Shown here piece by piece: positions 10,254 through 32,353 of a stretch of DNA of 64,000 nt. Every line of letters begins with the position of its first letter. The stretch's first letter is position 1. The stretch is from Alloyangia pacifica (GTDB taxonomy: Bacteria > Pseudomonadota > Alphaproteobacteria > Rhodobacterales > Rhodobacteraceae), in the NCBI RefSeq assembly GCF_020524285.1, contig NZ_JAIVKX010000005.1:62001-126000 (forward strand). Reading direction: 5' to 3'. A program made the translations under genes and the position numbers. The notes under the pieces are model-generated. The model was given only the letters and a program-made list of their open reading frames with translations, did no database searches and was not told the origin of the DNA.

Positions 10254-10286
10254 CCTGTGTCTTCCGGACGTTGCGGAATACACAGG
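10254..10286. promoter_or_regulatory. Inverted repeat upstream of the GntR gene
   Basis: Arms CCTGTGTCTTCC (10254-10265) and GGAATACACAGG (10275-10286) match with one mismatch around a 9-base loop. It lies 91 bases before the GntR start and 128 bases after the stop of the dehydrogenase gene. It has no T-run, so I favour an operator over a terminator. The rest of 10164-10413 shows no gene. Confidence 0.4.
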
Positions 10287-10413
10287 TACAAACTCACCTG
10301 GTCACCTTCATCGGGGCCACCGAGCCCGGTCCATGGGACCCGACAGGGCCCGGAACCGGGCGCGCGACCTGCGGTCTTCTGCTCGCAGCGCACCCGGCCC
10401 GAGGCCCCGCGGG

Positions 10414-13453: not shown

Positions 13454-13573
13454 TACCCGCTGATCCGGGTGCGCAGGCTGCGCCGCCGGAATGAGGCCCG
13501 GCCCCAGCGCGGGAGAGGCTGGCTGCTCCTCTTGTCCCGCCCTTGCGGAACGGATGCGTGGCTCGACGAAAGT

Positions 13574-13610
13574 GGAGCGGCGCGGCCCTTGGGTCGCGCC
13601 GTTCCTGTTT
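13574..13610 (+). terminator. Rho-independent terminator
   Basis: A 14-bp stem (13574-13587 with 13592-13605, two G-T wobbles) with loop CTTG, followed by TGTTT. It terminates the SDR transcript between convergent SDR and pobA. Confidence 0.8.
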
Positions 13611-13627
13611 GGCGTTCTGTGAGTGAT

Positions 13628-14809: not shown

Positions 14810-14819
14810 CGCGGGTTCC

Positions 14820-16202
14820 TCACAATACGCGCGTCAGGAAGAGAGTCAGGCTCGGCACGAGCACCAGGATGGCGACGCGCACCAGCTCGATGGCGAAGAA
14901 GGGGGCGACGCCGCGGAAGATCGTCGAGATCTGCGTCTTCGGGGAGAAGGACTTGATGACGAAGACGTTCATGCCAACCGGCGGGGTGATCAGCCCGAGC
15001 TCCACCACGATCAAGGCCAATATCCCGAACCAGATCCGCAGGTCGGAGTTCGACATGCCGAAGGCGGCGGTCTCGGCGGTGATGTAGTCGCCGCCGTTGA
15101 GCTGCACGAGCACCGGCCAGAAGAACGGCACGATGACCAGGATCATCGACAGGCTCTCCATGAAGCAGCCCAGCACGATGAGGATCAGCAGCATCGCCAC
15201 GAGGATCACATAGGGATCGAGCGACGAGGCCGCGGCCCAGTCCGACAGCGCTCCGGGCAGACCCGAGCGGGCGAAGAAACCCTTCAGGATGTCGGCCGAG
15301 AACAGGATGAAATAGATCATCGAGGCGGTCTTGGCGGTGGCCAGCAGCGCCGCCTTGAGGCGCGCCCAGGTCAGCCCGTCGTTGGAATAGCCGCGCAGGA
15401 TCAGGCCGTAGACGAGGATCAGGAACACCCCGACCGCGGCCGCCGGCGTCGGCGTGAAGAGCCCCATGCCGAGGCCGAGGATGATCGAGCCGAAGATCAG
15501 CGCCACCGGCAGCAGGCGGCGCAGCGAGCGGCGCACCTCTTCATCGCTGATCGGGGTCAGCTCGGGGGCGAGCGCGGGGTTGCGGGCGATGCGCAGGCGG
15601 ATCACCACGAGGAACATGATCACGGCAAGGATGCCGGGAATGATCGCAGCCTGGAACATCTCGAGGATCGAGGCCTCGACGACGATTGCGTAGATTACCA
15701 GCGCCACTGAGGGCGGGATCAGAATGCCGAGCGTGCCGCCCGCGGCGAGAACGCCGGTCGACAGGCCCTCGTCATATTTCAGCCGGCGCAGTTCCGGCAG
15801 CGCGACGCGGCTCATGGTCGAGGCTGTGGCGATGGAGGATCCGCTGACCGCACCGAAGCCACCGCAGGCGAGGATTGTCGCCATGGCGACGCCGCCGCGG
15901 ATCTTGCGGGTCATCACGCTCAGCCCCTGAAAGAGGTCACGGCTCAGCCCTGTTTCTGCGGCGAGAAAGCCCATCAGTACGAAGAGCGGCACGACCGACA
16001 GGTCGTATTTGGCCACGCTGTTCCACAGCGCGGTCTTGAACTGCATGAGATAGGGCACGAATTTGATGAAGGGCGAGGCGAGGCTCAGCGCCCATGTGCC
16101 GACGATACCGGTGAGGATCATCGCCAGCGCCACGGGGATGCGCAGCATGATCATCGCAAAAAGGCCGACGAGGCCAAAGACACCGATCAGTTCACTGTGC
16201 AT
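14820..16202 (-). CDS. TRAP transporter large permease (DctM family)
   Basis: 460-residue polytopic inner-membrane subunit that drives Na+-coupled solute uptake in a tripartite TRAP system. About 12-14 hydrophobic segments are seen from the N-terminus (GVFGLVGLFAMIMLRIPVAL) to the C-terminus. The conserved family blocks GFGAVSGSSIATASTMSRVA, GGTLGILIPPSVALVIYAI and LITPPVGMNVFVIK are all present. It overlaps the small permease gene by 11 bases and precedes pobA by ten, so the transported solute is probably 4-hydroxybenzoate or a related aromatic acid. Confidence 0.92.
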   Translation of the reverse strand: MHSELIGVFGLVGLFAMIMLRIPVALAMILTGIVGTWALSLASPFIKFVPYLMQFKTALWNSVAKYDLSVVPLFVLMGFLAAETGLSRDLFQGLSVMTRKIRGGVAMATILACGGFGAVSGSSIATASTMSRVALPELRRLKYDEGLSTGVLAAGGTLGILIPPSVALVIYAIVVEASILEMFQAAIIPGILAVIMFLVVIRLRIARNPALAPELTPISDEEVRRSLRRLLPVALIFGSIILGLGMGLFTPTPAAAVGVFLILVYGLILRGYSNDGLTWARLKAALLATAKTASMIYFILFSADILKGFFARSGLPGALSDWAAASSLDPYVILVAMLLILIVLGCFMESLSMILVIVPFFWPVLVQLNGGDYITAETAAFGMSNSDLRIWFGILALIVVELGLITPPVGMNVFVIKSFSPKTQISTIFRGVAPFFAIELVRVAILVLVPSLTLFLTRVL

Positions 16203-16701
16203 GGGACACCTCCTGTCCGAAGGTTTCCATCAGCGCCGCGATGGCCCAGAGCAGGCACGACAGGACGGCAGTCGGCATGAAAACCCACACGGGCCAGCCC
16301 AGCACGGCGGTTTCTACATTGTCGGAGCGGGTCTCGATGGTGCCGTAGATCAGCATCACCGCCATGGTCAGCGCGAGCGCGGTGACCAGCAGGCCCGAAA
16401 GGATTTCGACGCCGCGGCGCGCCCAGTCCGGTGCCTTGTCCATGAAGATGTCCACGGCGGCGTGCCCGCCGTGCAACTGGCAATAGGGGAACATGGCAAG
16501 GGCCGCGACGCCGATCAGCATCGTCACCCCGTCCTCGTAGCCCGACAGACCCGGGACGTCGCCGCCCCAGAGCCCAGCGATCATATCCGCCGTGAAGCCG
16601 GCGGCGTTGACGGCCGTCGCGAGGACGATGACGAGCAGCACGAGGCCGCCCGCCAGCGCCCATGTCGCGATGACCCCGGAAATCAGGGATCGAATGGACA
16701 T
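16192..16701 (-). CDS. TRAP transporter small permease (DctQ family)
   Basis: 169-residue membrane subunit with four predicted helices (near residues 12-32, 55-72, 92-118 and 135-155), the normal DctQ layout. Family-like features are the short hydrophilic piece DIFMDKAPDWARRGVE after helix 2 and the periplasmic ETRSDNVET region. It lies seven bases after the binding-protein gene and overlaps dctM. It connects the binding protein and the large permease; its exact transport role in the family is structural. Confidence 0.9.
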   Translation of the reverse strand: MSIRSLISGVIATWALAGGLVLLVIVLATAVNAAGFTADMIAGLWGGDVPGLSGYEDGVTMLIGVAALAMFPYCQLHGGHAAVDIFMDKAPDWARRGVEILSGLLVTALALTMAVMLIYGTIETRSDNVETAVLGWPVWVFMPTAVLSCLLWAIAALMETFGQEVSHAQ

Positions 16702-16708
16702 GTCAGAG

Positions 16709-17746
16709 TTACTCGGAGTGCTCTGCCACGGCAGCGCGGGCCTTTTCGATCAGCGCTTGGCCATCGATGCCCTTGCTTTCGGCTTCGGCCAGCCAGCGGC
16801 CCGCCACGGCCTCGAACGGCCCGTCGAAGGCGGCGGAGGCTTCGGCAGACAGGGCGACCACGGAGTTGCCCGCGTCTTCGGCCATCTGCTTGCCCACCGG
16901 CTCGATGCCGTTCCACTTCACGCCCATCTCCTCGGCCAGCGCGCGGCCGGAGTGGTCGTCGATGATCTTCTGCAGATCCTCGGGCAGCGACTCGTAGCTG
17001 TCCTTGTTCATCGCGAAGAGGAAGGTCGAGGTGCCGAAGCGCTTGCCGCCGTCCAGCTCGACCGAGGAGTCGGTCAGCTCCGACAGGCCGAGCGGGATGG
17101 CGACCTCGAAGGGCACGAGCGCCGCGTCGACCACCTTCTTCGACAGCGCCTGCGGCAGTGCGGGCACCGGCATCGCGACCGGCTCGGCGCCCAGTTCCTC
17201 GATCACCCATGCGCCGGTGCGCGAGGGGCTGCGGACCTTCAGGCCGGCGAAGTCCTCTGCGCTCTCGACGGTGCGACCCGCGAGGTGCAGCGCGTTGCCG
17301 GCGTGGACGTGGACGAGGATCGGGTGGACGTCCTCGAAGTCGGCGGCGAGGTCGTCGATCATGTCGTTGATGGCAAGGTTCGTGGCACGGGCGTCACCGC
17401 CATGCACGTTCGGCAGCTCGAACACTTCGAGATGCGGGAAGCTGCCCGGGGTGTAGCCCGGCAGGGTCCAGGCCAGATCGACCACACCGTCACGCACCTG
17501 GCTGAAGAGTTCGGGCGGCGAGCCGCCGAGCGACATGGCCGGAAAGATCTCGAAGTGGATGCGTCCGCCGGACGCGTCCTCGATGGATTTGGCCCAGGGC
17601 TCGAGCAGCACCGTCTGGGCCGGAGACTTCGGGCTCAGGAAATGGTGGATCGAGAACTGGAACTCCTGCGCGAAGGCGGGCGCGGAAATGGCGATGGTGC
17701 TGAGCGCCGTGGCCAGCCCGAGCACGTTGCGACGGGTGATGGTCAT
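16709..17746 (-). CDS. TRAP transporter solute-binding protein (DctP family)
   Basis: 345-residue periplasmic binding protein. A signal peptide with RR near the N-terminus and cleavage after APAFA (residue ~25) is followed by FSIHHFLSPKSPAQTVLLEP. DctP features are PELFSQVRDGVVDLAW, LKVRSPSRTGAW, which carries the ligand-carboxylate arginine region, and VDAALVPFEV. Start follows GGGAGGACC. First gene of the operon with pobA, so it is predicted to bind 4-hydroxybenzoate or another aromatic carboxylate. The arginine that salt-bridges the solute carboxylate in this family is compatible with that. Confidence 0.92.
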   Translation of the reverse strand: MTITRRNVLGLATALSTIAISAPAFAQEFQFSIHHFLSPKSPAQTVLLEPWAKSIEDASGGRIHFEIFPAMSLGGSPPELFSQVRDGVVDLAWTLPGYTPGSFPHLEVFELPNVHGGDARATNLAINDMIDDLAADFEDVHPILVHVHAGNALHLAGRTVESAEDFAGLKVRSPSRTGAWVIEELGAEPVAMPVPALPQALSKKVVDAALVPFEVAIPLGLSELTDSSVELDGGKRFGTSTFLFAMNKDSYESLPEDLQKIIDDHSGRALAEEMGVKWNGIEPVGKQMAEDAGNSVVALSAEASAAFDGPFEAVAGRWLAEAESKGIDGQALIEKARAAVAEHSE

Positions 17747-17783
17747 GGTGGGTCCTCCCTTAATGGTGCCGATGAAAATAACC

Positions 17784-17837
17784 TTTTCGATCCGGCGCGG
17801 AATGAACGCGACGCACAAAAACTTGCATTTTTCGATC
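17784..17837. promoter_or_regulatory. Direct repeats in the dctP/araC divergent region
   Basis: TTTTCGATC occurs at 17784-17792 and again at 17829-17837, 45 bases apart, inside the 135-base gap between the TRAP operon and the AraC-type gene. AraC-family activators usually bind direct repeats, so these are good candidates for its sites. Confidence 0.5.
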
Positions 17838-17881
17838 ATGTCGAGATCATGGCCGTGGCGTAAACACGGCAAGGAGGGCGC

Positions 17882-18763
17882 ATGGCGCGTCTGATTCCGA
17901 CCTATGAGCTATACGGAGAACTGCTTTCCGGCACGCTTTCAGACCCGATTCACCTCGAGACGATCTACGAACGCAGCAGCAAGCTTGATTGGACAATCCG
18001 ACTTCACCGCCACAGCCGGTTGCTGCAGGTCTTCCTCTTCCGCACCCCCAGCGTGAAGTTCCGCGTCGGCGACGGGGATCATCGCACCAGCGAGCCGCTT
18101 CTGCTCGTGGTGCCCCCGGGCACGCCGCACGGGTTCCGCTTTCCCGAGGACGTCAACGGCGATGTGCTGACCATTCCCATATCCGAGATCCACCCGCCCG
18201 TGCTCGATCGGCTCAGGCAGGTGACCCAGCCGTTCGCGGGGTTTCTTGCGCAGTCCGAAACACCGCGTTTTGCCGATGTCGATGCGCTGATGCGGCAGCT
18301 CGGCGCGGCCTATCATTCGGTCGGCAGCGAGCGCGAAGCGCTGCTCCGGGCGCTCAGCCACGCCATCGTGCTGACGCTGATCGAGGAACTGCGCCGCACC
18401 GCCCATATTGACGCCGGGCATGCTGGCGCCGAGCTCAGCCGACATGAGGCGCAGGCCCAGGCATTTTGCGAGCTGGTCGAGCAGCGTTTCGCTGAAACGG
18501 TCACCGTCGAGGACTATGCCCGCGTCATCGGCGTGTCGGCGCCGCACCTCACGCGCATCTGCAAACGGGTTCTCGGGGTTTCCCCGAACGAGTTGGTCCG
18601 ACGCCGCCGGATGCTCGAGGCCAAGCGACTGCTGACCTACACCCGCCTGCCGGTGCTCGACATCGCGCATCGCGCAGGCTTCGGCGATGCCGCCTTCTTC
18701 AGCCGCACCTTCAAGGCGACCTTCGACGTCACCCCGTCAGAGTTCCGAAAGCGATCCGACTGA
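17882..18763 (+). CDS. AraC-family transcriptional regulator (PobR-like)
   Basis: 293 residues: an N-terminal cupin-type sensing domain (PPGTPHGFRFPEDV near 80) and a C-terminal AraC double helix-turn-helix (about 195-290) with VEDYARVIGVSAPHLTRICK and the second-helix signature LDIAHRAGFGDAAFFSRTFK. Start supported by AAGGAGGGC. Divergent from the dctPQM-pobA operon, a position matching PobR-type activators that respond to 4-hydroxybenzoate. I infer that role and do not assign the symbol. A short hairpin terminator follows. Confidence 0.9.
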   Translation: MARLIPTYELYGELLSGTLSDPIHLETIYERSSKLDWTIRLHRHSRLLQVFLFRTPSVKFRVGDGDHRTSEPLLLVVPPGTPHGFRFPEDVNGDVLTIPISEIHPPVLDRLRQVTQPFAGFLAQSETPRFADVDALMRQLGAAYHSVGSEREALLRALSHAIVLTLIEELRRTAHIDAGHAGAELSRHEAQAQAFCELVEQRFAETVTVEDYARVIGVSAPHLTRICKRVLGVSPNELVRRRRMLEAKRLLTYTRLPVLDIAHRAGFGDAAFFSRTFKATFDVTPSEFRKRSD

Positions 18764-20342: not shown

Positions 20343-21920
20343 ATGCCGCAGGCCAAGCCCGATCCCACCACCATTCACGGACCAGGGTTCAGTCGCAGGA
20401 TGTTGCTGCTCTCGGCGGCCTCGGTCGGTGGGGCTGTGGTTCTCGGCGCGGGCTCGGTAACACGTGCGCTCGCGGCGGGGGCCGAGACCGAGGTGCCCGC
20501 GAGGTCGCCGCTCGGGCTGGCCGCCGACCTGCACAACCCGCGCGAGGTGCTGTCGGCGGGCGGGCGCTTCCGGCTCGACCTGACGATGACGCAGTCGCGG
20601 ATCGAGCTGCCCTATGCGATGGCGGACCTGCGGCTCTACGAGGGCGAGATCCCGGGGCCCACCTTCCGTGTGCGTCCCGGCGACGACATGGAAATCACCC
20701 TGCACAACGACATGCCGCCGAATGCCGATCCGGCGCCGGCGGTGCTCAACACGCCCAACGAGTTCAGCACGACGAACCTGCATTTCCACGGCTTCCACGT
20801 CAGCCCCAAGGGCAATTCCGACAACGTCTACCTGCAGATCCACCCCGGCGAGAGCTTCAACTACATCGTGCGCCTGCCTCAGGACCACCCGGCGGGGAAC
20901 TACTGGTACCACCCGCATCGCCACGGCTCGGTGGCGCTGCAGGTGGCCTCGGGCTGCGGCGGCATGATGATCGTCGGCGGCACGCTCGATGAGGTGCCCG
21001 AGGTGGCCGCCGCGATCGAGCGGGTTCTGGTCTTCCAATGCCCGGTGGTCGACCCCAAGGCCGAGGACCTCGACAGCTACGACACCATCTGGTCGCTGGA
21101 CGCCGAGCGCTTCTGGCTGGTCAACGGCCAGTACCACCCGCGCATCTACATGCGGGCCGGAGAGGTGCAGCACTGGCGGATGCTCAACGCCGGGGACCAG
21201 CAGTTCCTGCCGATGACGCTCGACGGGCTCGAGCTCTGCGAGATCGGCTTCGACGGCAACCCCTATCCCGAGGCGCGGCCGACCGAGGAGGTCTTCCTCG
21301 CGCCCGGCAACCGCATGAACCTGATGGTCAAGGCGCTGGAGCCGGGCAGCTACACGCTGCGCCGGCCCGCCTTCAGCCAGGGCAAGCAGCCGCTCGACGA
21401 GGTGGTGCTGGCCGAGGTCATCGTGCTGCCCGCGGACACCAGCCGCATCGCACCTGACGTGAAGATGGGCACCGAGCTGCCGAAGGGGCCGTTGCCGAAG
21501 AACAAGATCCTCACCGACATCGCCGATGACGAGATCGTCCGGACCCGGCAGATCGTGCTCGGCGTCAGCGACGAGAAGGGGATGTTCAAGGACACGGTGT
21601 TCACCCTCAACGGCGCCCCCTTCGACCCGAAGCGCGACGACATCGTCGCCAGGCTCGGCGAGGCGGAGGAATGGGAGCTGGTGAACACCACGCCCTTCCC
21701 GCATCCGATCCACGTGCACGTGAACCCGATGCAGGTGATCAAGATCAACGGCGAGCCGCTGGCGCATCCGCAATGGCAGGACACCATCGCCGTGCCCGCC
21801 GCGGGCACCGTCACACTGCGCATGCGCTTCACCGATTTCGACGGGCGGTTCGTCATGCACTGCCACATCCTGCCACACGAAGACCTGGGGATGATGCTCA
21901 ATGTCGCCATTCAGGCTTGA
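20343..21920 (+). CDS. Tat-exported multicopper oxidase
   Basis: 525-residue laccase/CueO-like enzyme that couples one-electron oxidations to reduction of oxygen to water in the periplasm. The N-terminal SRRMLLLSAAS followed by a hydrophobic stretch to ALAAG is a twin-arginine signal. All four copper motifs are intact: HFHG (His147, His149), WYHPHRHG near 185, HPIHVH near 457, and HCHILPHEDLGMM with Cys507 between His506 and His508. There is no methionine-rich insert as in CueO. First gene of a six-gene operon; the next start lies inside its last codons. The ribosome binding site is weak. Possible terminal oxidase for the dehydrogenase downstream. Confidence 0.93.
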   Translation: MPQAKPDPTTIHGPGFSRRMLLLSAASVGGAVVLGAGSVTRALAAGAETEVPARSPLGLAADLHNPREVLSAGGRFRLDLTMTQSRIELPYAMADLRLYEGEIPGPTFRVRPGDDMEITLHNDMPPNADPAPAVLNTPNEFSTTNLHFHGFHVSPKGNSDNVYLQIHPGESFNYIVRLPQDHPAGNYWYHPHRHGSVALQVASGCGGMMIVGGTLDEVPEVAAAIERVLVFQCPVVDPKAEDLDSYDTIWSLDAERFWLVNGQYHPRIYMRAGEVQHWRMLNAGDQQFLPMTLDGLELCEIGFDGNPYPEARPTEEVFLAPGNRMNLMVKALEPGSYTLRRPAFSQGKQPLDEVVLAEVIVLPADTSRIAPDVKMGTELPKGPLPKNKILTDIADDEIVRTRQIVLGVSDEKGMFKDTVFTLNGAPFDPKRDDIVARLGEAEEWELVNTTPFPHPIHVHVNPMQVIKINGEPLAHPQWQDTIAVPAAGTVTLRMRFTDFDGRFVMHCHILPHEDLGMMLNVAIQA

Positions 21921-22209
21921 CCTCGCGGCGCTCGCGCTGCTCGCACCCTGCGCCGCGCTGGCCGAGGATGCCCCGGCGGTCCCCGCCAGCGTCTCGACCT
22001 GCGTCTCCTGCCACGCCGCCGACGGCAACCCGCTGGTGGCGGGCGTGCCGATCCTGGCGGGCCAGCGCGAGGATTACCTGCAGAGCGCGCTGAAATCCTA
22101 CCGCTCCGGCTACCGCAAGGGCGGCATGGCGGACGTCATGGAGATCTACGCCAAAGAGCTTTCCGACAGCGACATCGAGGAGATCGCCAAATGGTTCAGC
22201 GCAAACTGA
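21901..22209 (+). CDS. Periplasmic monohaem cytochrome c (c4/c553-like)
   Basis: 102 residues: Sec signal peptide (LDLAALALLAPCAALAE), then one CVSCH haem site (Cys34, Cys37, His38), GQREDYLQSALKSY and a GGMADVM region giving the methionine ligand, and a final IEEIAKWFSA helix. This is the class I c4/c553 half-domain pattern. It overlaps the oxidase gene by 20 bases and the next gene by 19, so expression is tightly coupled. A natural electron carrier between the GMC dehydrogenase and the multicopper oxidase or the respiratory chain; this role is inferred. Confidence 0.92.
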   Translation: MSPFRLDLAALALLAPCAALAEDAPAVPASVSTCVSCHAADGNPLVAGVPILAGQREDYLQSALKSYRSGYRKGGMADVMEIYAKELSDSDIEEIAKWFSAN

Positions 22210-22883
22210 TCGCCGCCCTGCTGGGGCTGACCCTCGCCGGGCCGGTGATGGCCGCGGACCTCGTCTACCTGACCAGCGCGGAAGGCGAGGACCGGCTGCT
22301 CGGGGCCGAGATGAACCGCGACTACTTCCCGCTTGCCTCCTATCTCGAGTACGAGCAGATCCTGACCTTCTGCGGCCCCGCCTCGGTCGCCGCCGTGGCC
22401 AATTCGCTCGACGTCTCGCGGCCCTCGCCGGACCGGCTCTACCCGTGGACGCTGTTTACCCAGGACACGCTGTTCAACGCGGCGAACCAGGAGCTGAAAC
22501 CCTACGCCCAGGTCGAGCACGAGGGGCTGACTCTGGCCGAGCTCGACACCTTCATCGAGAACCTCGGGATGACGGCGGAGCACCATTTCGCCGACGAGAC
22601 CCCGGTGGACGCGCTGCGCGCGGCGCTCAAGACCACGCTCTCGGACCGGGGCGCGCGATTCATCGCCAACTACTCGCGCAAGGCGCTGCCGCAGGAGGGC
22701 GACGGGCACATCTCGCCGGTCGCCGCCTATGACGAAGACACCGACAGCGTGCTGATCCTCGACGTGGCCAAGTACAAGTACCCGCCGGTCTGGGTCACGG
22801 TGGAGACGCTGCACGCGGGCATGATGATGACCGACAGCGGCTCCAACCGCTCGCGCGGGTTCGTCGTGGTTTCGGCGCCATGA
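22191..22883 (+). CDS. Secreted phytochelatin-synthase-like cysteine peptidase/transpeptidase
   Basis: 230 residues with a Sec signal peptide (LIAALLGLTLAGPVMAAD). The papain-like triad of phytochelatin synthases is visible: Cys61 in TFCGPASVAAVANSL, His173 in GHISPVAAYDE, Asp191 in LILDVAKYKYPPVWV. The His-Asp spacing of 18 equals that of plant (Cys56/His162/Asp180) and cyanobacterial enzymes. Short prokaryotic homologues cleave glutathione to gamma-Glu-Cys and some make little phytochelatin. Exported location and the oxidoreductase neighbours are unusual. It could act on a thiol peptide, or process a partner of the cassette. Overlaps both neighbours. Confidence 0.85.
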   Translation: MVQRKLIAALLGLTLAGPVMAADLVYLTSAEGEDRLLGAEMNRDYFPLASYLEYEQILTFCGPASVAAVANSLDVSRPSPDRLYPWTLFTQDTLFNAANQELKPYAQVEHEGLTLAELDTFIENLGMTAEHHFADETPVDALRAALKTTLSDRGARFIANYSRKALPQEGDGHISPVAAYDEDTDSVLILDVAKYKYPPVWVTVETLHAGMMMTDSGSNRSRGFVVVSAP

Positions 22884-23365
22884 GCCCGGCACCGCAGTCC
22901 CGCCGCGCCGTGCTGAGCGGTGGCGCCAGCCTCGTCGCCATGGCGGCGCTGCCGGGCGGCGCGCTGGCCGCCTCGCTGAACGGCGCCCGCGACCGGGCGA
23001 TGTTCCGCTCGATCCTCTACGCGCTCGCCGGACCGGTGAGCGTCGCGCCGCAGCTTCTCGACAGCGTTACCGCACTCTTCGAGGCAAAGTTTGGCGCATC
23101 CGCGGTGGATGTGCTCTCGGCCCATGCGGCGCAGGCCGGGGTCGCGCCGCTGCTCGAGCCGCAGGAGGACGCGGGCCGCGAGGCGCAGCTGCAATGGCTG
23201 ACCGAGGCGCTGTTCACCGGCACCTCCGATCCCGAGGACGACGGTGCCCGCATGATCAACTACCCCCACGCGCTGGGCTGGAAATCCCTCAGCTTCGGGA
23301 AGGCGCCGGGGCTCTGCGCCGGGCCCGACTTCGGCTACTGGTCCGAGGCATGGAGCGCGGCATGA
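22880..23365 (+). CDS. Tat-signal small subunit of the GMC dehydrogenase
   Basis: 161 residues. SRRAVLSGGASLVAMAAL is a twin-arginine signal; the mature part is helical, with LDSVTALFEAKFG and a C-terminal GWKSLSFGKAPG and SEAW. Size, Tat signal and position directly before a GMC oxidoreductase match the gamma (hitch-hiker) subunits of FAD glucose, sorbitol, fructose and gluconate dehydrogenases. These carry the signal-less catalytic subunit through the Tat system. Overlaps the upstream gene (ATGA) and the GMC gene (ATGA). Confidence 0.8.
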   Translation: MSPAPQSRRAVLSGGASLVAMAALPGGALAASLNGARDRAMFRSILYALAGPVSVAPQLLDSVTALFEAKFGASAVDVLSAHAAQAGVAPLLEPQEDAGREAQLQWLTEALFTGTSDPEDDGARMINYPHALGWKSLSFGKAPGLCAGPDFGYWSEAWSAA

Positions 23366-24978
23366 GCGAACCGGGCGATCTCTCCGCCGACATCGTCGTC
23401 GTCGGCTCGGGCATGGGCGGCGCGCATCTGTCGCGCAGCCTCGCCGAAGCCGGGCGCGACGTGCTGGTGCTCGAGGCCGGGGGGCGCAAGACGCGCGGCG
23501 AATACCTCGCGGATTTCTACGAGAACCCGGTGAAGGGACCGCAGGCGCCGTACCCGAGCCAGGACTTCGCACCGCATCCCACCGACACCGATTACGACGC
23601 TTTCTACGACCAGGCGGGGCCCGCGCGCTTCGTCGGGGCCTACCTGCGCATCTACGGCGGCACAAGCTGGCACTGGACCGGCTTCGCCGACCGGCTCCGC
23701 CCCGAGGACTTCCAGGCCGCCACGCTCTACGGGCGCGGGGCCGACTGGCCGATCGGCTACGATGATCTGCTGCCCTACTACCGGCAGGCGGAAGCGCGCT
23801 GGGGGGTCGCCGGTGATCCGGCGCACACCTGGGGCGCGCCGCGCGCGGCGGAGGATCCCTATCCGATGCCGCCGATCCCCGCGTCGTACATGGACAAGCA
23901 GATCCAGAGCCAGGCGCTCGACGCCATGGGGCTGAACGCCGCGATCTTCAGCCATGCCCGCAACTCGCTGGTGCACGACGGGCGCCCGCCCTGCTGCGGC
24001 AACAACACCTGCGTGCCGATCTGCCCGATCAGCGCCAAGTACGACGCCTCGGTCGACATGGACAAGGCGGTGGCCGCGGGCGCGCGGATCGAGCTGCAGG
24101 CTCTGGTGACCCATGTTGCGGTGGGCGAAGACGGCAAGGTCAGCGGCCTCACCATCCGCCGCCCCGACGGCACCACCCAGAGCGTCACGGCAAACACCTA
24201 CGTGCTGGCCTGCCACGCCATCGAGACCCCGCGCCTGCTGCTCAACTCGAAGCAGGAGAGCGCCCCGAACGGTGTCGCCAACGGCAACGACCAGGTCGGG
24301 CGCTACCTGCTCTCGCAGTGGAACGTCGATGTCTGGGGGGAGGTGCGCGATCCGGTCTACCCCTACCGCGGGCCGCAGCAGACCTCGGGCATCACCGAGT
24401 ACCGCGACGGCGCCTTCCGCAAGGACTACGCGCCCTTCGGCACCTCCTTCATGAACAACGGCTGGAGCGGCAATTCCGACGCAACCAAGCTGTCGAAGGC
24501 GCTGATTGCCAAGGGCATGCGCGGGGCGGCGCTGGTCAAGGCGCTCGACGGCCAGATCGGGCGGCACGTGCGGCTCAACTCCTCGGCAGAGACGCTGGGC
24601 AGCCCCGACAACCGCATCACCCTGTCGGACCAGGTGGACAGCGCGGGCATCCCCAAGCCGCGCATCGCCTTCACCGTGGACGATTACACCAACGCCGGGA
24701 TCAAGGTCGCCACCGACGTCTCGCGCGAAGTACTGACCCGCATGGGCGCGCCCGAGGTGCAAACCAACGATCCCTACCTGTCGAACGCGATCATCGGCGG
24801 CACCACCCGCATGGGCACCGATCCCAAGAATTCGGTGGTGACCCCCGACCTGCAGAGCCACCAGCACGACAATCTCTACATCCTCGGAGCCAGCACCCAC
24901 GTGAGCTGCCCGGTCAACGCCCCCTCGCTCACCATCGCTGCCATGGCGATCCGGCTCGCCGGGCACCTCGGGGCATGA
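23362..24978 (+). CDS. GMC-family FAD dehydrogenase with 3Fe-4S-type cysteine motif
   Basis: 538-residue catalytic subunit of a periplasmic alcohol, sugar or lactone dehydrogenase. FAD motif VVVGSGMGGAHLS begins at residue 12 and GGTSWHWTG near 100. Cys211, Cys212 and Cys217 in CCGNNTCVPICP have the C-C-x4-C spacing that binds a 3Fe-4S cluster in bacterial FAD-glucose and fructose dehydrogenases. The C-terminal HVSCPVNAPSLT supplies the catalytic His and Asn. No signal peptide, so export would rely on the preceding Tat subunit. The usual triheme cytochrome subunit is absent; the monohaem cytochrome at 21901 is the only haem protein here. Substrate unknown. Confidence 0.9.
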   Translation: MSEPGDLSADIVVVGSGMGGAHLSRSLAEAGRDVLVLEAGGRKTRGEYLADFYENPVKGPQAPYPSQDFAPHPTDTDYDAFYDQAGPARFVGAYLRIYGGTSWHWTGFADRLRPEDFQAATLYGRGADWPIGYDDLLPYYRQAEARWGVAGDPAHTWGAPRAAEDPYPMPPIPASYMDKQIQSQALDAMGLNAAIFSHARNSLVHDGRPPCCGNNTCVPICPISAKYDASVDMDKAVAAGARIELQALVTHVAVGEDGKVSGLTIRRPDGTTQSVTANTYVLACHAIETPRLLLNSKQESAPNGVANGNDQVGRYLLSQWNVDVWGEVRDPVYPYRGPQQTSGITEYRDGAFRKDYAPFGTSFMNNGWSGNSDATKLSKALIAKGMRGAALVKALDGQIGRHVRLNSSAETLGSPDNRITLSDQVDSAGIPKPRIAFTVDDYTNAGIKVATDVSREVLTRMGAPEVQTNDPYLSNAIIGGTTRMGTDPKNSVVTPDLQSHQHDNLYILGASTHVSCPVNAPSLTIAAMAIRLAGHLGA

Positions 24979-26432
24979 ACGGGCTCGGGCTTCTCCTGCT
25001 GGTGCCTTTGGTGCTGCTCGGCAACGGGCTGCGCTCGGTCATCGCCTCCACGGTCTTCGTCTCGGAAGGCAGCTTTGCCAGCTTCCTGTCGATCACCGTC
25101 GAGGCCACGGCGGCGATCATGGAGCTGCTGATGGGCGCGGTGCTGGTCTCGCTGCTCGTCGCGCCCTGGCTGATGCGCCGGATCCCGGCGAAGCGCCTCG
25201 CGGTCTGGATGTGCCTGCTGGCGGGGACGGCGGCGCTGGGTCTGGCGGCGCTGTTCCGCTTCGCCCCGCCGGTCGACACGCGGGTGGCGCTGGTGGTGCT
25301 GCTCTTTCCCATGGCGGGTTTCGGGCTCGCCACGCTGGCGCCGATCTCGCAGGCTTGGACGGGGCTCGGCGGGCCGCGCTGGGACAAGTTCCTGACCGGC
25401 GTGTGGTCGGTGGCCATGCCGCTGGCCTTCCTCGTCACGCCGCAGCTGGTCCGCGTGGTCGCCCCGCGGCACGGGCTCGACATCTTCTTCGCCGGCTTCG
25501 CGATGGTCGTGCTGCTGCTGATCGGCGCGATCCTCCTGCTGCGCCGGCGTGCGCCGGAGGAGACGGGCGAGGCGGCACCGGCGCAGCTGTCGGGGCGGCT
25601 GATGCTGGCGGCGCTGGCGGCGCTGATGCTCTTCGAGGGGGTGACCTTTCTCACCTCGCTCGAGACCATCCGCTCGCCCTTCGTGCTGCCGCTCGCCGCG
25701 CTCTTCGCCGCGAGCCTGTGGTACCTGCAAAGGGTCTGGCGGGCCGCGCCGCGCAGCGCCGCGAGCGATCCCGCCACCCGCCGCCGCATCGCCGCGCTCT
25801 TCGCCGCGCTCTTCCTGCTGAACGTGGCGACCACCGGCTTCTTCGACACCGCCTACCTGGTGCGCCACGCCTGCTCGACCACGCTGATCGACGACCGCGC
25901 CACGCTGGCGGCGCTGGCGCAGGTGATCGCCGCCACGGGCACCGCCGCGGCGCTGGCGCGCTGGAGCCTGCATATCCCGCTCATCGTCGCGGGCATCGGC
26001 ATCGCCGCGCTGGGACTGGTGTCCTACCTCGCCTATCCGGGGCTGCTGGTGCTGAGTTTCTACCCGATCCCGGACAATGCCATCTTCGTCGGCTCGCGCC
26101 TGCTCACCGGCTTCGGCAGCGGCATGGCGACCACGGCGACGATCTTCGCCGTCGGCCGGATCGCGGGGCCGAAGAGCGGGGCGCAGCTGTTCCTCGCCTT
26201 CGTCATCATCATCGGCACCGAGATCGGACTCGAAGGCTTCGAGCTTCTCAGCCAGCTGGTCACCCTGTCGAACGGCAGCACGCTGCCGCCCTACACGCTG
26301 ATCTTCCTGGTGCAGGCGGGGCTCGCTCTTGTCGCGATGCTGCCGCTGGTCTTCGGATCGTTTGGGGCCGCGCCCTCGTCGCCGCCATTGCCCATTCCGG
26401 GCACCGGTGGCGCGAAGCGCGTGGGGAGCTGA
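24975..26432 (+). CDS. Polytopic membrane protein, MFS-like
   Basis: 485 residues, almost all hydrophobic, with about 12 helices and a central loop near RRRAPEETGEA. Fragments such as RWDKFLTGVWSVAMPL and GSGMATTATIFAVGRIAG suggest a major-facilitator-type transporter, but no family motif is decisive. ATG overlaps the GMC stop (ATGA), making it the last gene of the cassette. A transporter for the dehydrogenase's substrate or product, or for the thiol peptide made by the phytochelatin-synthase-like protein, would fit. The stop codon lies inside a perfect palindrome (26425-26448). Confidence 0.75.
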   Translation: MNGLGLLLLVPLVLLGNGLRSVIASTVFVSEGSFASFLSITVEATAAIMELLMGAVLVSLLVAPWLMRRIPAKRLAVWMCLLAGTAALGLAALFRFAPPVDTRVALVVLLFPMAGFGLATLAPISQAWTGLGGPRWDKFLTGVWSVAMPLAFLVTPQLVRVVAPRHGLDIFFAGFAMVVLLLIGAILLLRRRAPEETGEAAPAQLSGRLMLAALAALMLFEGVTFLTSLETIRSPFVLPLAALFAASLWYLQRVWRAAPRSAASDPATRRRIAALFAALFLLNVATTGFFDTAYLVRHACSTTLIDDRATLAALAQVIAATGTAAALARWSLHIPLIVAGIGIAALGLVSYLAYPGLLVLSFYPIPDNAIFVGSRLLTGFGSGMATTATIFAVGRIAGPKSGAQLFLAFVIIIGTEIGLEGFELLSQLVTLSNGSTLPPYTLIFLVQAGLALVAMLPLVFGSFGAAPSSPPLPIPGTGGAKRVGS

Positions 26433-26861: not shown

Positions 26862-27563
26862 TCAGTCGGCGGCGAAGCCCAGGTAGGACTTGATCGAGGC
26901 GAGATCGACGCGGGACGCGGTGCCGGGGATCCGGCCTTGCGCCAGCGTCTCGACGACGTGCTGGTATTCCTCGAGGTAGCCCGGCGCGAGGTCATGCGCG
27001 ATGCCCTGGTGGCAGTCGATGCAGGTCATGTTCTCGTCGACCGCGCGCTGATGGTTTTGCGCGGCCCGCGTCTCCTGGATGGTGAAATCCATGTACTCGA
27101 AAGCGTGGCAGTTGCGGCACTCGCGGCTGTCGGTCGCCTTCATCTTCTTCCACACGGCCGCGGCCATCTCGAGCCGCCGCTCCTCGTATTTCTCCGAGGT
27201 GTTAATGGTGCCCCGCAGCTCGTGGTAGACGTCCTTCACCGCCATCACCTTGGCCTTCATCTTGTACTGCCATTCATGCGGCACGTGGCAGTCCGAGCAG
27301 ATCGCCCGCACGCCGGAGTGGTTGTTGTAGTGGATGGTCTCGCGGTACTCGCCGAGGTTGGTTTCCATCGAATGGCAGGAGATGCAGAACTCTTCGGTGT
27401 TGGTCAGCTCCAGCGACCAGTGGAAGCCGCCCCAGAACAGGATCCCGGCCAGGAACCCCGCGATCAGCAGGAAGCCGGCGCTGAACAGGCCGGTGGGGCT
27501 CCAGAAAGCGTCCCATATCCGGAGCAGGATGTTGCGGCGGCGGTGCCCGTGGTTGTCCGGCAT
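26862..27563 (-). CDS. napC: Tetrahaem cytochrome c quinol dehydrogenase NapC
   Basis: 233-residue NapC/NirT protein that oxidises membrane quinol and passes electrons to NapAB. One N-terminal membrane anchor (GLFSAGFLLIAGFLAGILFW) precedes four CxxCH haem sites: CISCH, CSDCH, CRNCH and CIDCH. Conserved features include HSMETNLGEY after haem 1, WQYKMKAKV and the final HQGIAHDLAP. It follows napB by 27 bases. With napGH also present, the cell has two possible quinol-oxidising routes to NapA. Confidence 0.95.
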   Translation of the reverse strand: MPDNHGHRRRNILLRIWDAFWSPTGLFSAGFLLIAGFLAGILFWGGFHWSLELTNTEEFCISCHSMETNLGEYRETIHYNNHSGVRAICSDCHVPHEWQYKMKAKVMAVKDVYHELRGTINTSEKYEERRLEMAAAVWKKMKATDSRECRNCHAFEYMDFTIQETRAAQNHQRAVDENMTCIDCHQGIAHDLAPGYLEEYQHVVETLAQGRIPGTASRVDLASIKSYLGFAAD

Positions 27564-27590
27564 CTCGTCTCTCCCCGTTCGGTCCTTGCG

Positions 27591-28034
27591 TCAGCGCGAC
27601 GTGCTGGAGGCTTCGAAGTCGTTGCCGACAAGCGTGGGCGCATCCGCCTGCGGCACGTGGCACTGGGTGCAGAACCAGCGGGTGCCGGCCACCGTGTCGA
27701 GCTGGGTGCCGTCGCGGTCGAGATAGTGGGTCATCGACAGCGTCGGCGCGCCCCGGTCGCCGGCGTTGGTCCAGTCGTGGCAGCTCAGGCACTGGTTGGT
27801 GCGCAGGTCGATCTGGTACTGGGTCATGGAGTGCGGGATGGTCGGCGGCTGCTGGCGGTAGTTGCGCACCTCGCGGCCCTCCTGCTGCGGGTAGACCTCG
27901 GGCGGCGTCAGCTCCTGGTCGACGGCGGCACCGCGCAGCGACTGGATGCCTCCGGAGGTCTGCGCCACGACCAGCCCCGCGATGAGCAGGGGCGAGGCGA
28001 GGGCGGCGATCTTGGCGATGACCGGCAGTTTCAT
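27591..28034 (-). CDS. napB: Dihaem cytochrome c subunit NapB of periplasmic nitrate reductase
   Basis: 147-residue small subunit that feeds electrons to NapA. Signal peptide to about residue 25 (SPLLIAGLVVAQ), two haem sites CLSCH and CTQCH, and the NapB-typical REVRNYRQQPPTIPHS and FCTQCHVPQADAPTLVGNDF near the C-terminus. Lies between napH (43-base gap) and napC on the minus strand. Confidence 0.95.
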   Translation of the reverse strand: MKLPVIAKIAALASPLLIAGLVVAQTSGGIQSLRGAAVDQELTPPEVYPQQEGREVRNYRQQPPTIPHSMTQYQIDLRTNQCLSCHDWTNAGDRGAPTLSMTHYLDRDGTQLDTVAGTRWFCTQCHVPQADAPTLVGNDFEASSTSR

Positions 28035-28077
28035 GGGCGCTCTCCGTGGTTGGTTGCTGTCACGCGGGGTAGGTTAC

Positions 28078-28986
28078 TCAGGCGACGGTTTGGCGGGATG
28101 GTCCGGGCGGGGAGGAGGGACCCTCGACACGGCGGTCGAAGCGGTGGGTGAAGGCGAAGACATCGACCGAGCAGACATCGACGCAGCGCCCGCAATTGGT
28201 GCAGTCGGGCGAGAGGATCAGCGGCGTCTCGCCGTCCTTGCCGCGTAGGGCCGGGGCGATGACGTGGTTCTCGGGGCAGACCGCAAAGCAATCCATGCAA
28301 TCGTCGCAGGCGGCGCGTCGCGTCGCGCTGACCCGCAAGAGGCTGTGCGTGCCGAGCAGCCCGTAGAAGGCTCCGACCGGACACAGATGCCCGCACCAGC
28401 CGCGGCGCGAGACCAGCAGATCGAAGAGAAACACCAGCGCCACCAGCGCCCAGGCAAAGCCCATGCCGAAAACCAGCCCGCGGTGCAGCATGGTGATCGG
28501 GTTGATCGCCTCCCAGGCGACGGTGCCGGTCAGCGCCGAGACGGCCAGAACCGTGCCGAGCAGCCAGAGCCGCGTGTGGCGCTTCGGTTGCCAGCCCTTC
28601 TGCAGGCCGAGCCGGTCGTGCAGCCAATGCGCCGCGTCGGTCACCGGGTTGATCGGGCAGACCCAGGAGCAATAGACCCGCCCGCCGATCAGCGCATAGG
28701 CGGCAAGCACGATCAGCGCGCCGATCAGCGCGGTCAGCTCGGGCCAGTGCCCGGCGGCGAGGCTCTGCGCCAGCACCAGCGGATCGGTCAGCGGCAGGAT
28801 GCCGAAGGTGCGCGAACCGGCCAAAGTGCCCGCCACCCACCACAGGCCGAACCAAGGGCCAAGCAGGAAGAGAAGCAGGAAAAACCCCTGCGACAGCCGC
28901 CGCAGCAGCAGGAAGCGATGCGCTTGCCACCAGCCCTTGAGGCGGATCGCCTCCACGCCGACCGGGAGTTTCGTCTTCTCCTTCAT
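28078..28986 (-). CDS. napH: Quinol dehydrogenase membrane subunit NapH
   Basis: 302-residue ferredoxin-type membrane protein. Four transmembrane helices, two cytoplasmic CxxxCP motifs ([10 protein letters not shown] and [10 protein letters not shown]), and C-terminal 4Fe-4S binding runs [13 protein letters not shown] and [15 protein letters not shown]. It oxidises menaquinol or ubiquinol with NapG and sends electrons to NapB/NapC. Its start overlaps the napG stop (ATGA). The Pro/Ser-rich tail after the clusters (PSSPPGPS) is likely disordered. Confidence 0.93.
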
Positions 28987-29804
28987 TCACCCGCTCCCGG
29001 CGCCGGGAGCGTGAAGCTGGGCTCGAAGCCGCCCGGCGCGGCGAGGTTGTCGGTGCCGGGGCCTGGCAGCCGGTCGGGCAGGTCGATCACCCCCTCGACC
29101 AGCGGCCCGCCCTTTTCCTCCATCTCCTCCCAGCCCTTGCGGTAGTGCTCGGCGGGCGCGCCGCGTGCGAGCCGCAGCGGCAGCACCTTGATCGCGGCCT
29201 CGGGCAGCACGCAGCTCTTCTCGCACTTGCCGCAGCCGGTGCAGTGCTCGGCGTGGACGGTCGGGGCAAAGATCGCGTGATGCCCAGAGCGGGTGTTGTG
29301 CGACAGCTCGAGGGTGATCGCCTCGTCGATCACCGGGCAGACGCGGTAGCAGACGTCGCAGCGCAGTCCGAGGAAGTTGAGGCAGTTCTCCTGGTCCACC
29401 AGCACGGCGGTGCCCATGCGCGCCTCGTCTATGTCGGTGAGCGCCGGGTCGAGCGCGCCAGTGGGGCAGGCGGTGACGCAGGGGATGTCGTCGCACATCT
29501 CGCAGGGCACGTCGCGGGCGGTGAAGAAGGGCGTGCCGGTGGCCGGCCCGTCGGCGCCCAGCTCGGCCAGCGCCAGCGTGTCATAGGGGCAGTCCCGCAC
29601 GCACAGGCCGCAGCGGATGCAGGCGCCGAGGAAGTCGGCCTCGGGCAGGGCGCCGGGCGGACGCAGCGCTTCCGCCGGGAGCGCCCGCGCATCCCGCGCC
29701 AGCCAGGCCAGCCCGCCGCCCGCCAGCGCGCAGCCGCCGGCCATCCGCGCGGTGTCCGTCAGGAACCTGCGGCGTTGGGGCGAGAGCGGCGTGGCGGCGG
29801 GCAT
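28983..29804 (-). CDS. napG: Periplasmic ferredoxin-type protein NapG
   Basis: 273-residue Tat-exported iron-sulfur protein working with NapH. N-terminal [17 protein letters not shown] is a Tat signal. Four 4Fe-4S sites follow: [35 protein letters not shown] and [12 protein letters not shown]. Start at 29804 is supported by GAGGAGG. Encoded between napA (56-base gap) and napH. The C-terminal extension after VLPLRLARG is Pro/Gly-rich. Confidence 0.93.
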
Positions 29805-29860
29805 GACGGACCTCCTCTGGCGTCTCCCGTGGCGGTATGCGGGCCGGGCCCGGGCGCGGT

Positions 29861-32353
29861 TCAGGCGCGCGCGACCTTGCAGGCGCATTTCTTGAAGTCG
29901 GTCTCCTTGGACAGCGGGCAGGTGGCGTCGAGCGTCAGCTTGTTGATCAGCTGCCCCTCGTCGAACCACGGCACGAAGACCAGCCCCTTTGGCACCTTGT
30001 TGCGGCCGCGGGTCTCGACCCGGCTGAGCATCTCGCCGCGGCGGGTCGAGATGGTGATTTCCTGTCCGCGCCGCAGGCCGCGTTCCTCGGCGTCCTCGGG
30101 GTGCATGAACACCACCGCGGCGGGGAAGGCCCGGTGCAGCTCGGGCACGCGTCTGGTCATCGAGCCGGAATGCCAATGCTCCAGCACCCGCCCCGTGGAG
30201 AGCCAGAGATCATACTCCTCGTCCGGAGCCTCGGCGGCGGGCTCGTAGGGGGCGAAGATGATCTTCGCCTTGCCGTCCGGGTGGCCGTAGAAGGTCACCT
30301 CGGTGCCCTCGGGCACATAGGGATCGTAACCCTCGCGGAAGCGGTAGAGCGTCTCCTGCCCATCCACCACCGGCCAGCGCAGCCCGCGCGCCTGATGGTA
30401 TTGCTCGAAGGGCGCGAGATCGTGGCCGTGGCCGCGCCCGAAAGCGGCGTATTCCTCGAACAGCCCCTTCTGCACGTAGTAGCCAAAGTGCTGAGCCTCG
30501 ACATTGTCGAACCCCTCGGCGGTCTCTTCCAGCGGGTAGGCGTTCACCTGGCCGTTCTCGTAGAGCACCTCGTAGAGCGTCTTGCCGGCCAGCTCGGGCA
30601 TCTTGGCCACCAGTTCGTCGCCCCAGGCCTCCTCGACGGTGAAGCGCTTGGCAAACTCCATGAGCTGCCAGAGGTCCGACTTGGCCTCGCCCGGCGCCAT
30701 GACCTGCTGGCGCCAGAACTGGGTGCGGCGCTCGGCATTGCCGTAGGCGCCTTCCTTCTCGACCCACATGGCGGTGGGCAGGATCAGGTCGGCCGACATG
30801 GCGGTCACGGTCGGGTAGGGGTCCGAGACGGTGACGAAGTTCTCGGGGTTGCGGTAGCCTGGCCAGCCCTCTTCGTTGATATTGGCCCCAGCCTGCATGT
30901 TGTTGTTGCACTGCACCCAGTAGGCATTGAGCGTGCCGTCTTTCAGCGCGCGGTTCTGCGCCACGGCGTGCAGGCCCGGCTTTTCTGGGATGGTGCCCTC
31001 GGGCAGCTTCCAGATTTCCTCGGCATGGGCGCGATGCTCGGGGTTGGTCACCACGAGGTCGGCGGGCAGACGATGCGCGAAGGTGCCGACCTCGCGCGCG
31101 GTGCCGCAGGCCGAGGGCTGGCCGGTGAGCGAGAAGGGGGAGTTGCCCGGCTCCGAGATCTTCCCGGTCAGCAGGTGGATGTTGTAGCACAGCCCGTTCG
31201 CCCAGGACCCGCGCGTGTGCTGGTTGAAGCCCATGGTCCAGAGCGACATGACCTTGCGGTTGGGATCGGCGTATTGCTCGGCCAGCCGTTCGAGCTGGTG
31301 TGCCGGAACGCCGGACATCTCGGAGACCGTCTCCAGCGTGTATTCCGAGACCGCCGCGGCATACTCGTCGAAGTCGATCGGGGTGAGCTCGCCGGAGTTG
31401 GGGTTGGCCGCCGCTTCCTGAAGCGGGTTGGTGTCGCGCAGCCCGTAGCCGATGTCGGTGGCCGTTCGGGTGATGTTGACGTGCTTTTCGAGGAAGTCCC
31501 AGTTCACCGCGTCGTTCTGGATGATGTAATTGGCGATGTAGTTGAGGATCGCCAGGTCCGTCTGCGGCGTGAAGACCATGCCGTTGTCGGCCAGCTCGAA
31601 GCTGCGGTGCTCGAAGGTCGAGAGCACGTGCACCTGCGCGCCCGCCTTGGTCAGCCGGGTGTCGGTCAGCCGCGACCACAGGATCGGGTGCATCTCCGCC
31701 ATGTTCGAGCCCCAGAGCACGAAGGTGTCGGCATGCTCGAGGTCGTCGTAGCAGCCCATCGGCTCGTCGATGCCGAAGGCGCGCATGAAGCCGACCACCG
31801 CCGAAGCCATGCAGTGCCGGGCATTGGGGTCGATGTTGTTCGACCGGAAGCCCGCCTTCATCAGCTTGGAGGCGGCGTAGCCCTCCCAGACCGTCCATTG
31901 TCCCGAGCCGAACATGCCCACCGAGGTCGGCCCCTTCGTGGCCAGCGCTGCCTTCCATTTTTCGGCCATGACGTCGAAGGCCTCGTCCCAGCTCACCGGT
32001 TCGAACTCGCCGTTCTTGTCGTAGACGCCGCCCGACTTGCGCAGCATCGGCGTGGTCAGACGGTCGGCGCCATACATGATCTTCGACAGGAAGTAGCCCT
32101 TGATGCAGTTGAGCCCGCGGTTCACCGGCGCCTCGGGATCGCCCTGGGTGGCGACGACCCGGCCGTCCTTGGTGCCCACCAGCACCGAGCAGCCGGTGCC
32201 GCAGAAGCGGCAGGGGGCCTTGTCCCAGCGGATGTCCGAATTGCCCGGGGTCTGCGCCAGAGCGCCGGGGGCGAGCGATATGCCCGCGGCGGCGGCTGTG
32301 CTGGCGGCGGCGGTGGCCTTGAGGAAAGTCCTGCGCGAGTCCGAGATGGTCAT
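29861..32353 (-). CDS. napA: Periplasmic nitrate reductase catalytic subunit NapA
   Basis: 830 residues, the usual NapA length. It reduces nitrate to nitrite at a bis-MGD molybdenum site in the periplasm. Tat signal [13 protein letters not shown]; one 4Fe-4S cluster from CRFCGTGC and the later NRGLNCIKG; molybdenum-ligand Cys in ARHCMASAV near residue 180; C-terminal [18 protein letters not shown] and the closing [11 protein letters not shown]. The napD chaperone gene lies three bases upstream. No frameshift or truncation is seen. Confidence 0.97.

Follow-up and report, generated by a model that had tools for sequence, protein, structure and literature searches.

A recurrent six-gene operon links a phytochelatin synthase-like protein with a cytochrome c and with a GMC flavoprotein whose catalytic pair is replaced

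Introduction

The closest described relatives of the system considered here are two sugar dehydrogenase complexes, the FAD glucose dehydrogenase of Burkholderia cepacia (BcGDH; PDB 6a2u and 8hdd) and the fructose dehydrogenase (FDH) of Gluconobacter japonicus (PDB 7w2j and 8jej), in which a catalytic subunit of the GMC family is joined by a small “hitch-hiker” subunit and a triheme subunit. According to excerpts of the published work on BcGDH, Cys212, Cys218, and Cys222 hold a 3Fe-4S cluster, Cys213 pairs with Cys152 of the small subunit, His105 is the probable site of covalent FAD attachment, and His476 and Asn519 are the likely catalytic pair (PMC6719666); the step from the 3Fe-4S cluster to the heme spans 7 to 8 Å (PMC9727119). 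Other points of comparison are the phytochelatin synthase (PCS) homologue Alr0975/NsPCS (PDB 2btw, 2bu3, and 6tho), which is described as hydrolyzing glutathione to gamma-Glu-Cys and glycine (PMC12065762), the bacterial laccases (PDB 6wcn and 2xu9), and transporters of the EmrB/EfpA type (PDB 8zal and 8x6x) in the major facilitator superfamily (MFS). Here, we describe a six-gene cassette in which relatives of these proteins are encoded side by side, at positions 20343 to 26432 of a 64,000-nucleotide stretch of the Alloyangia pacifica genome (contig NZ_JAIVKX010000005.1, positions 62,001 to 126,000; “the window,” in which all positions below are counted unless a locus is named). To our knowledge, the role of bacterial PCS homologues is not settled, and a widely shared operon linking PCS to a cytochrome and a flavin dehydrogenase gives these homologues a concrete, testable context.

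We refer to the genes by letter: A, copper oxidase; B, cytochrome c; C, PCS-like enzyme; D, small subunit; E, GMC flavoprotein; and F, membrane protein. E and D are the counterparts of the catalytic and the hitch-hiker subunit of BcGDH and FDH, with which they share the 3Fe-4S and intersubunit disulfide cysteines, the flavin-linking histidine, and the twin-arginine leader of the small subunit. Unlike those complexes, cassette E has lost the catalytic His/Asn pair and gained a new His and Asn, cassette B is a monoheme protein of 102 residues rather than a triheme subunit, and the cassette adds a PCS, a copper oxidase, and an MFS protein. C resembles NsPCS in its papain-like triad, domain length, and second-site residues, but Gln64 of NsPCS is Glu in C, and C is tied to a cytochrome c genetically and, in one case, physically. 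A has the three cupredoxin domains and the type 1, 2, and 3 copper-ligand motifs of bacterial laccases, yet it carries a twin-arginine leader, and its operon also encodes a cytochrome c and a flavin dehydrogenase. F has the predicted fold of the EmrB/EfpA-type transporters, although its identity to them is 13 to 18% and it falls under the MFS_1 cut-off. The parts thus come from known families; their combination, the remodeled E, and the lineage of C with the Gln-to-Glu change are new to us.

A recurrent gene unit

All six genes lie on the + strand, and successive open reading frames (ORFs) in the window overlap by 20, 19, 4, 4, and 4 bases. How widely is this arrangement shared? Named genomes were scanned with an alignment of cassette PCS proteins, and the best 79 of 210 confirmed loci were then searched with all six proteins; C is present in them by design, and some rows are near-duplicates (L062/L063, and L091/L092 with identical PCS), so that not all are independent. 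The complete series A-B-C-D-E-F, on one strand and in the same order, was found at 27 of the 79 loci, in 15 named genera: Alloyangia, Salipiger, Nitratireductor, Paracoccus, Aliiroseovarius, Yoonia, Mameliella, Thalassospira, Kiloniella, Rhizobium, Agrobacterium, Neorhizobium, Hoeflea, Chelativorans, and Aquibaculum. The median gaps along the cassette are 2, −4, −4, −1, and 2 bases, with maxima of 127 (C-D) and 219 (E-F) in some loci. Because the order recurs in this way, the grouping of the genes is not a matter of chance. The carriers are many, among marine and soil bacteria, and Thalassospira, Kiloniella, and Salipiger are cultured environmental bacteria that would be open to deletion of the operon.

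Not every locus holds all six genes. Three are cut by contig ends, so that L061 shows A to E, L069 shows A to C, and L093 shows B and C. Seven others (L088 to L092, L094, and L095) lack A but carry B-C-D-E, followed at L094 by a distant MFS gene; since these seven keep B-C-D-E without the copper oxidase, this set looks like the core, and A is not essential to the system. In none of the four core-form genomes that were searched whole was an orthologue of A found (two gave no match at 1e-10, and two gave weak matches only). C stands alone at 39 of the 79 loci. At L079 (Mesorhizobium hawassense, about 9737 to 10669), it follows a decayed B, and this locus is apparently the remnant of a lost cassette; at L096 and L128, from Tepidamorphus metagenome-assembled genomes (MAGs), it adjoins a divergently read B-like cytochrome c. 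The F gene of Alloyangia mangrovi (L054, about 12833 to 14195) is split over two frames, owing either to mutation or to sequencing error.

Searches that set out from E rather than from PCS covered 289 genomes of the class, 394 of the family, and 378 of the phylum; these samples overlap, and in those of the family and the phylum only a few candidates per genome were scored. With two added by the family and phylum searches, they yielded cassette-type E in five genomes (the window's own, G000, together with G195, G293, G404, and G1012). A-B-C-D adjoin this E in all five, own genome included, and F does so in four. Ordinary relatives of E numbered 34, and among the 12 of their loci that were fetched, none held A or C. 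Among the 289 class genomes, F occurs in three, and the same three alone have A above 55% identity and E above 60%; they also hold cassette C. Within the genus, 6 of 20 genomes (the window's own among them) have the PCS gene at an identity of at least 90%, and the other five genes are present in order at the loci of all five relatives; with the PCS in so few of these genomes, the cassette is therefore accessory even within the genus. It is plasmid-borne at least once, on NZ_CP014600.1 of Salipiger sp. CCB-MM3, the sole match in a plasmid search with F. The ratio dN/dS of A to F is 0.08 to 0.23 in comparisons with Salipiger mangrovisoli and Alloyangia pacifica and 0.14 to 0.50 in comparison with Paracoccus isoporae, where B and F are highest, followed by D; E has the lowest value of the six genes in all three comparisons.

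A preliminary description of this DNA, made from the letters of the window, had reported the overlaps just given and had treated the six genes as a unit. The overlaps lie where it placed them, and the order is conserved well beyond close relatives. It had also entertained a chance assembly, in which the neighborhood would be rare or the PCS-like gene usually absent; the neighborhood is not rare, the PCS gene stands beside each of the five E genes found in the E-first searches, and in one genome B and C are fused. Its export pattern agrees with what we see: judged by eye rather than with a signal-peptide program, the N termini of A and D carry twin-arginine motifs and those of B and C hydrophobic leaders, E has none, and F is a membrane protein of predicted MFS fold. 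Finally, it had named no described system that joins these parts, and in the open-licence literature that we searched, neither an equivalent operon nor a cytochrome-PCS fusion appeared to be described.

The flavoprotein and its small subunit

E (23362..24978, +) matches the Pfam models GMC_oxred_N and GMC_oxred_C, and no signal of its own was seen. Its nearest solved structures are 8hdd and 6a2u (E value of about 1e-105), which makes it a homologue of the catalytic subunits of BcGDH and Gluconobacter FDH. Residue conservation was read from 35 rows, comprising the window, the 27 six-gene loci, and the seven core loci. C211, C217, and C221, at the 3Fe-4S positions, and C212, at the position of the disulfide partner of D (all within 23992..24024, +; roles after PMC6719666), are kept in 35 of 35 rows, as is the flavin-linking H104. 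In the same 35 rows, His476 of BcGDH is replaced by Ile, Asn475 by Ala, and Asn519 by Ala; in the window these are Ala476-Ile477 (24787..24792, +), at the place of the substrate Asn and catalytic His, and Ala520, at the place of the catalytic Asn. The catalytic His and Asn are kept in all 34 noncassette relatives of E (about 35 to 44% identity). Four more cassette-type E loci from genome searches (L143, L144, L149, and L160) fit the cassette pattern. In fructose dehydrogenase, the residues aligned with the replaced sites of E are H1147 and N1146; both were picked for mutation, as the molecule names of PDB 8k6j and 8k6k indicate.

In place of the old pair, His513 and Asn519 (window numbering) are invariant in all 35 cassette rows; they lie, with Ala520, in a shared C-terminal loop (24898..24921, +), and alignment would place His513, with respect to the flavin, beside the old site. 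In total, the cassette rows share 36 invariant positions that the five relatives compared lack. Judged from these residues, E has kept its electron wiring and lost the usual chemistry, and because the catalytic pair is gone in every cassette row, E is not an ordinary GMC dehydrogenase. A natural GMC enzyme in which the electron-transfer cysteines are kept and both catalytic residues are replaced invites biochemistry.

D (22880..23365, +) is a small protein with a twin-arginine motif that passes the FAD-SLDH model (PF12318) at 26.0 bits against a cut-off of 24.2; 5 of 29 members reach an E value of 0.01 against that model, and a sequence search of the PDB with D gave no real match. The top three Foldseek matches of its predicted structure (pLDDT 77.5) are small subunits of fructose and glucose dehydrogenases, at weak E values of 0.14 to 2.2. 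Cys146 (23315-23317, +) is present in 36 of 36 rows, in the C-terminal tail, as is Cys152 of BcGDH, and the RR motif is present in 33 of 36. Taken together, sequence and model point to D as the partner subunit of E.

The phytochelatin synthase-like enzyme and the cytochrome

C (22191..22883, +) has a leader, matches the Pfam Phytochelatin model at 2.3e-53 and the Alr0975/NsPCS structure at an E value of about 4e-41, and carries the papain-fold triad as C61, H173, and D191. It was compared over 39 rows, 31 of the six-gene type (the window, 27 loci, the cut L061 and L069, and the L181 fusion described below) and 8 of the core type (the cut L093 included). The Cys-His-Asp triad is kept in all 39, and so are the residues R173, Q178, K206, and Y207 of the NsPCS second site. 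Glu takes the place of the oxyanion-hole glutamine (NsPCS Gln64, papain Gln19) throughout, in 31 of 31 rows of the six-gene type and in 8 of 8 of the core type; in the window it is Glu55 (22353..22355, +). This glutamine, the counterpart of papain Gln19, contributes to the oxyanion hole and is needed, as Gln50, in AtPCS1 (PMC3855540). The papain variant Gln19Glu is said to gain nitrile hydratase activity, and a reference title in PMC3643963 names the nitrile hydratase activity of papain and a mutant. With the oxyanion hole altered, plain phytochelatin synthase or glutathione hydrolase activity of C is therefore not to be assumed, and a PCS lineage with a near-fixed change at this site also invites biochemistry.

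In a tree of 78 PCS rows, 28 six-gene and six of seven core proteins fall in one branch with support of 100/99. Solo PCS proteins fall inside this branch and the core protein of L094 falls outside it, so that a single origin of the cassette PCS is not established. L100, from a Euryarchaeota MAG, holds a PCS with the oxyanion Glu, and none of the five other cassette genes was found on that locus; the archaeal label could be a binning error. Around 36 PCS loci (34 noncassette loci plus L094 and L095), the recurrent redox genes are the B-like cytochrome (L094, L095, L096, and L128) and, at three loci, a GMC gene of another type. The latter stands about 1 kb from a solo PCS at L125:1614-3374 and L130:11025-12788 and 7 kb away at L123:2804-4624; by eye, this type looks choline dehydrogenase-like, and the L123 protein shares 52% identity with those of L125 and L130. 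This is a possible second PCS-GMC pairing.

B (21901..22209, +) is a small cytochrome c with a leader and a match to the Pfam model Cytochrom_C. It has one CxxCH motif (residues 34 to 38) in its 102 residues, and C34, C37, H38, and M80 are present in 40 of 40 rows. In genome G404, B and C are a single ORF of 329 residues (L181:5220-6209) with a leader, a Cytochrom_C domain at residues 27 to 93, and a Phytochelatin domain at 120 to 322; no second leader is seen by eye. The fusion supports, as one case, the idea of a periplasmic PCS that works next to the cytochrome.

The copper oxidase and the membrane protein

A (20343..21920, +) is a three-domain, laccase-like multicopper oxidase with a twin-arginine N terminus (Pfam Cu-oxidase_3, Cu-oxidase, and Cu-oxidase_2). 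Its copper-ligand motifs, HxH at 147/149, HxH at 190/192, HxxHxH at 454 to 459, and HCHxxxHxxxxM at 506 to 517, were all found, and the 12 positions of the copper ligands, assigned after the pattern of the multicopper oxidase family, are invariant in 30 of 30 cassette rows. Among structure matches, A scores 203 bits against laccases, 149 against 3zx1 (a putative oxidoreductase), and 102 against CueO, and it lies far under the curated family cut-offs, reaching 115 of 525 bits for the CueO model and 86 of 479 for the CopA model.

F (24975..26432, +) is a polytopic membrane protein that is divergent in sequence and passes no Pfam cut-off. The window protein scores 14.5 bits against MFS_1, for which the cut-off is 33.4, and 16 of 23 members have E values of at most 0.1; a sequence search of the PDB with F gave no match. 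An AlphaFold2 model built on a 23-row alignment (pLDDT 83.8, pTM 0.83) has as its best Foldseek match 8zal_J, from an EmrAB-type pump (TM 0.72, E value 3e-9), and F is thus predicted to have the MFS fold.

A proposed mechanism and its rivals

The observations outlined above suggest a tentative model, one that we favor with somewhat less than even confidence, in which the cassette encodes a periplasmic oxidation chain of flavin, Fe-S, heme c, and copper whose substrate is a glutathione-type thiol that the PCS handles. The plan would be that of a glucose or fructose dehydrogenase complex in which the active site is new and a thiol enzyme has been added. D would take E through the Tat pore, and E, tied to D by a disulfide, would bind FAD (probably on His104) and a 3Fe-4S cluster. 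C, located at the cytochrome, would prepare or deliver the compound that E would oxidize via a relocated His513/Asn519 center and not via the usual His/Asn pair; this compound is most likely a gamma-glutamyl-cysteinyl (glutathione-type) thiol or a conjugate of one. Electrons would pass from the substrate to the flavin, the 3Fe-4S cluster, and the heme of B, and in the six-gene form they would go on from this heme to A, the copper oxidase, and to oxygen; where A is missing, another acceptor would be used. F would probably transfer substrate or product across the inner membrane. We infer this electron chain from the parts list. The preliminary description had proposed a dehydrogenase-to-oxygen chain, and of that proposal the order of parts (FAD to 3Fe-4S to heme c to copper) stands as a fit, whereas E is not an ordinary GMC dehydrogenase and the oxidase is dispensable.

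We also speculate on a more specific version, which we consider unlikely as it stands. B-C-D-E may be a two-step machine in which the PCS with the oxyanion Glu acts on a gamma-Glu-Cys compound by way of a thioimidate- or thioester-type intermediate, after which the GMC protein with the relocated His and Asn oxidizes the product, with electrons going to the fused or adjacent cytochrome c. For neither the PCS nor the GMC family do we know of such two-step chemistry; if the idea is true, this would be an oxidation chain fed by a phytochelatin synthase-type reaction.

Several observations weigh against the proposed thiol-oxidation chain. The substrate is deduced from C alone and could be wrong, and the cassettes and their surroundings yielded neither a substrate nor a regulator nor a flanking gene that keeps a fixed place. 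E, being without the catalytic pair of its relatives, might oxidize nothing. Contact between B and A is putative, and the two could act separately; some lineages do without A or F, and in one lineage F is divided between frames. The activity of AtPCS1 is very low in the Q50A mutant and absent in Q50N (PMC3855540). Finally, six of seven solo PCS proteins near the cassette clade also have the oxyanion Glu, as do 3 of 35 that are more distant, two of which are the Tepidamorphus proteins beside a B-like cytochrome (the other 32 have Gln). This distribution speaks against a strict link between C and E, and since the near solo proteins share the change, it marks a PCS lineage more than the cassette itself.

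Could the cassette be explained in other ways? C might serve in maturation and not act on a substrate, as a papain-like protease or ligase by which B or E is processed or loaded. Its place between B and D-E and its fusion to B at L181 would suit such a role, and the changed oxyanion residue argues against plain glutathione hydrolysis; the substrate-site residues of a PCS are, however, kept in 39 of 39 cassette rows, and C is missing at all 12 fetched loci of ordinary E relatives, so flavoproteins of this kind do not need it to mature. We judge this improbable. A comparably low plausibility attaches to the idea that E is an electron hub or a non-redox flavin enzyme, of which the GMC-fold hydroxynitrile lyase is an example, and that C or A is the real substrate enzyme. 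The exchange of the catalytic His and Asn for Ile and Ala and the retention of the electron-transfer cysteines, both in 35 of 35 rows, speak for this idea, but the new invariant His and Asn beside the old site and the 36 cassette-specific positions look like new specificity and not decay, and the low dN/dS of E in all three comparisons is likewise at odds with it.

Copper handling, which the preliminary description had offered as an example of a purpose, would have A oxidize Cu(I), C act on copper thiol chelators, B and E-D recycle electrons, and F export the complex. A is a multicopper oxidase with full ligand sets, and it matches 3zx1 (149 bits), which is presumably a metal-oxidizing enzyme; plant PCS enzymes, moreover, use metal-thiol substrates (PMC3855540). 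On the other side, A is nearer to laccases than to CueO and scores far under the cut-offs of the CueO and CopA models; among the flanking genes, which were judged by eye and not searched with profiles of copper genes, none of any kind keeps a fixed place; and A is missing from the core form, with no orthologue in the four such genomes searched. We rejected it as a first choice on these grounds, found nothing else that points there, and regard it as distinctly improbable. Least plausible of all, and already weakened, is an ordinary periplasmic sugar or alcohol dehydrogenase with its cytochrome and an oxidase, to which the PCS gene is a passenger. The subunit plan equals that of BcGDH, FDH, and SLDH; the active-site residues, however, differ in every cassette row, and PCS lies beside all five cassette-type E genes that were found without the use of PCS (own included) and is fused to B once. 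We consider this explanation highly unlikely.

Neighboring genes

ORFs flanking 37 loci were clustered and judged by eye, and no gene outside A to F keeps a fixed place across the six-gene loci. ABC transporter-like ORFs occur in 13 loci at scattered positions, and some genes are common only within the Kiloniella or the Roseomonas group. A TRAP transporter adjoins the cassette in the window and in CCB-MM3 and was considered as a clue to the substrate, yet it clustered in only 4 of the 37 loci and was set aside. At L128, a large adjoining protein without a Pfam match resembles, by eye, two proteins at L094 (7921-9501 and 14394-15980). In Neoroseomonas (L088, L090, and L093), a long ORF lies upstream of B; that of L090 is a SulP-type permease with STAS and cNMP-binding domains, to which the ORFs of L088 and L093 are alike by eye only.

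In the window itself, the TRAP transporter genes (DctM/DctQ/DctP, 14820-17851, −) are accompanied by a 4-hydroxybenzoate 3-monooxygenase gene (13628-14809, −) and one for an AraC regulator nearest to HpaA (17882-18763, +), and this region, 13628-18763, looks like a locus for the uptake and degradation of aromatic acids. Directly behind the cassette is a periplasmic nitrate reductase cluster (26862-32353, −), in which NapA, NapG, and NapH are over their cut-offs and the NapC- and NapB-like genes are under theirs. Farther along, at 45026-46375 (−), is a gene for a luciferase-like monooxygenase.

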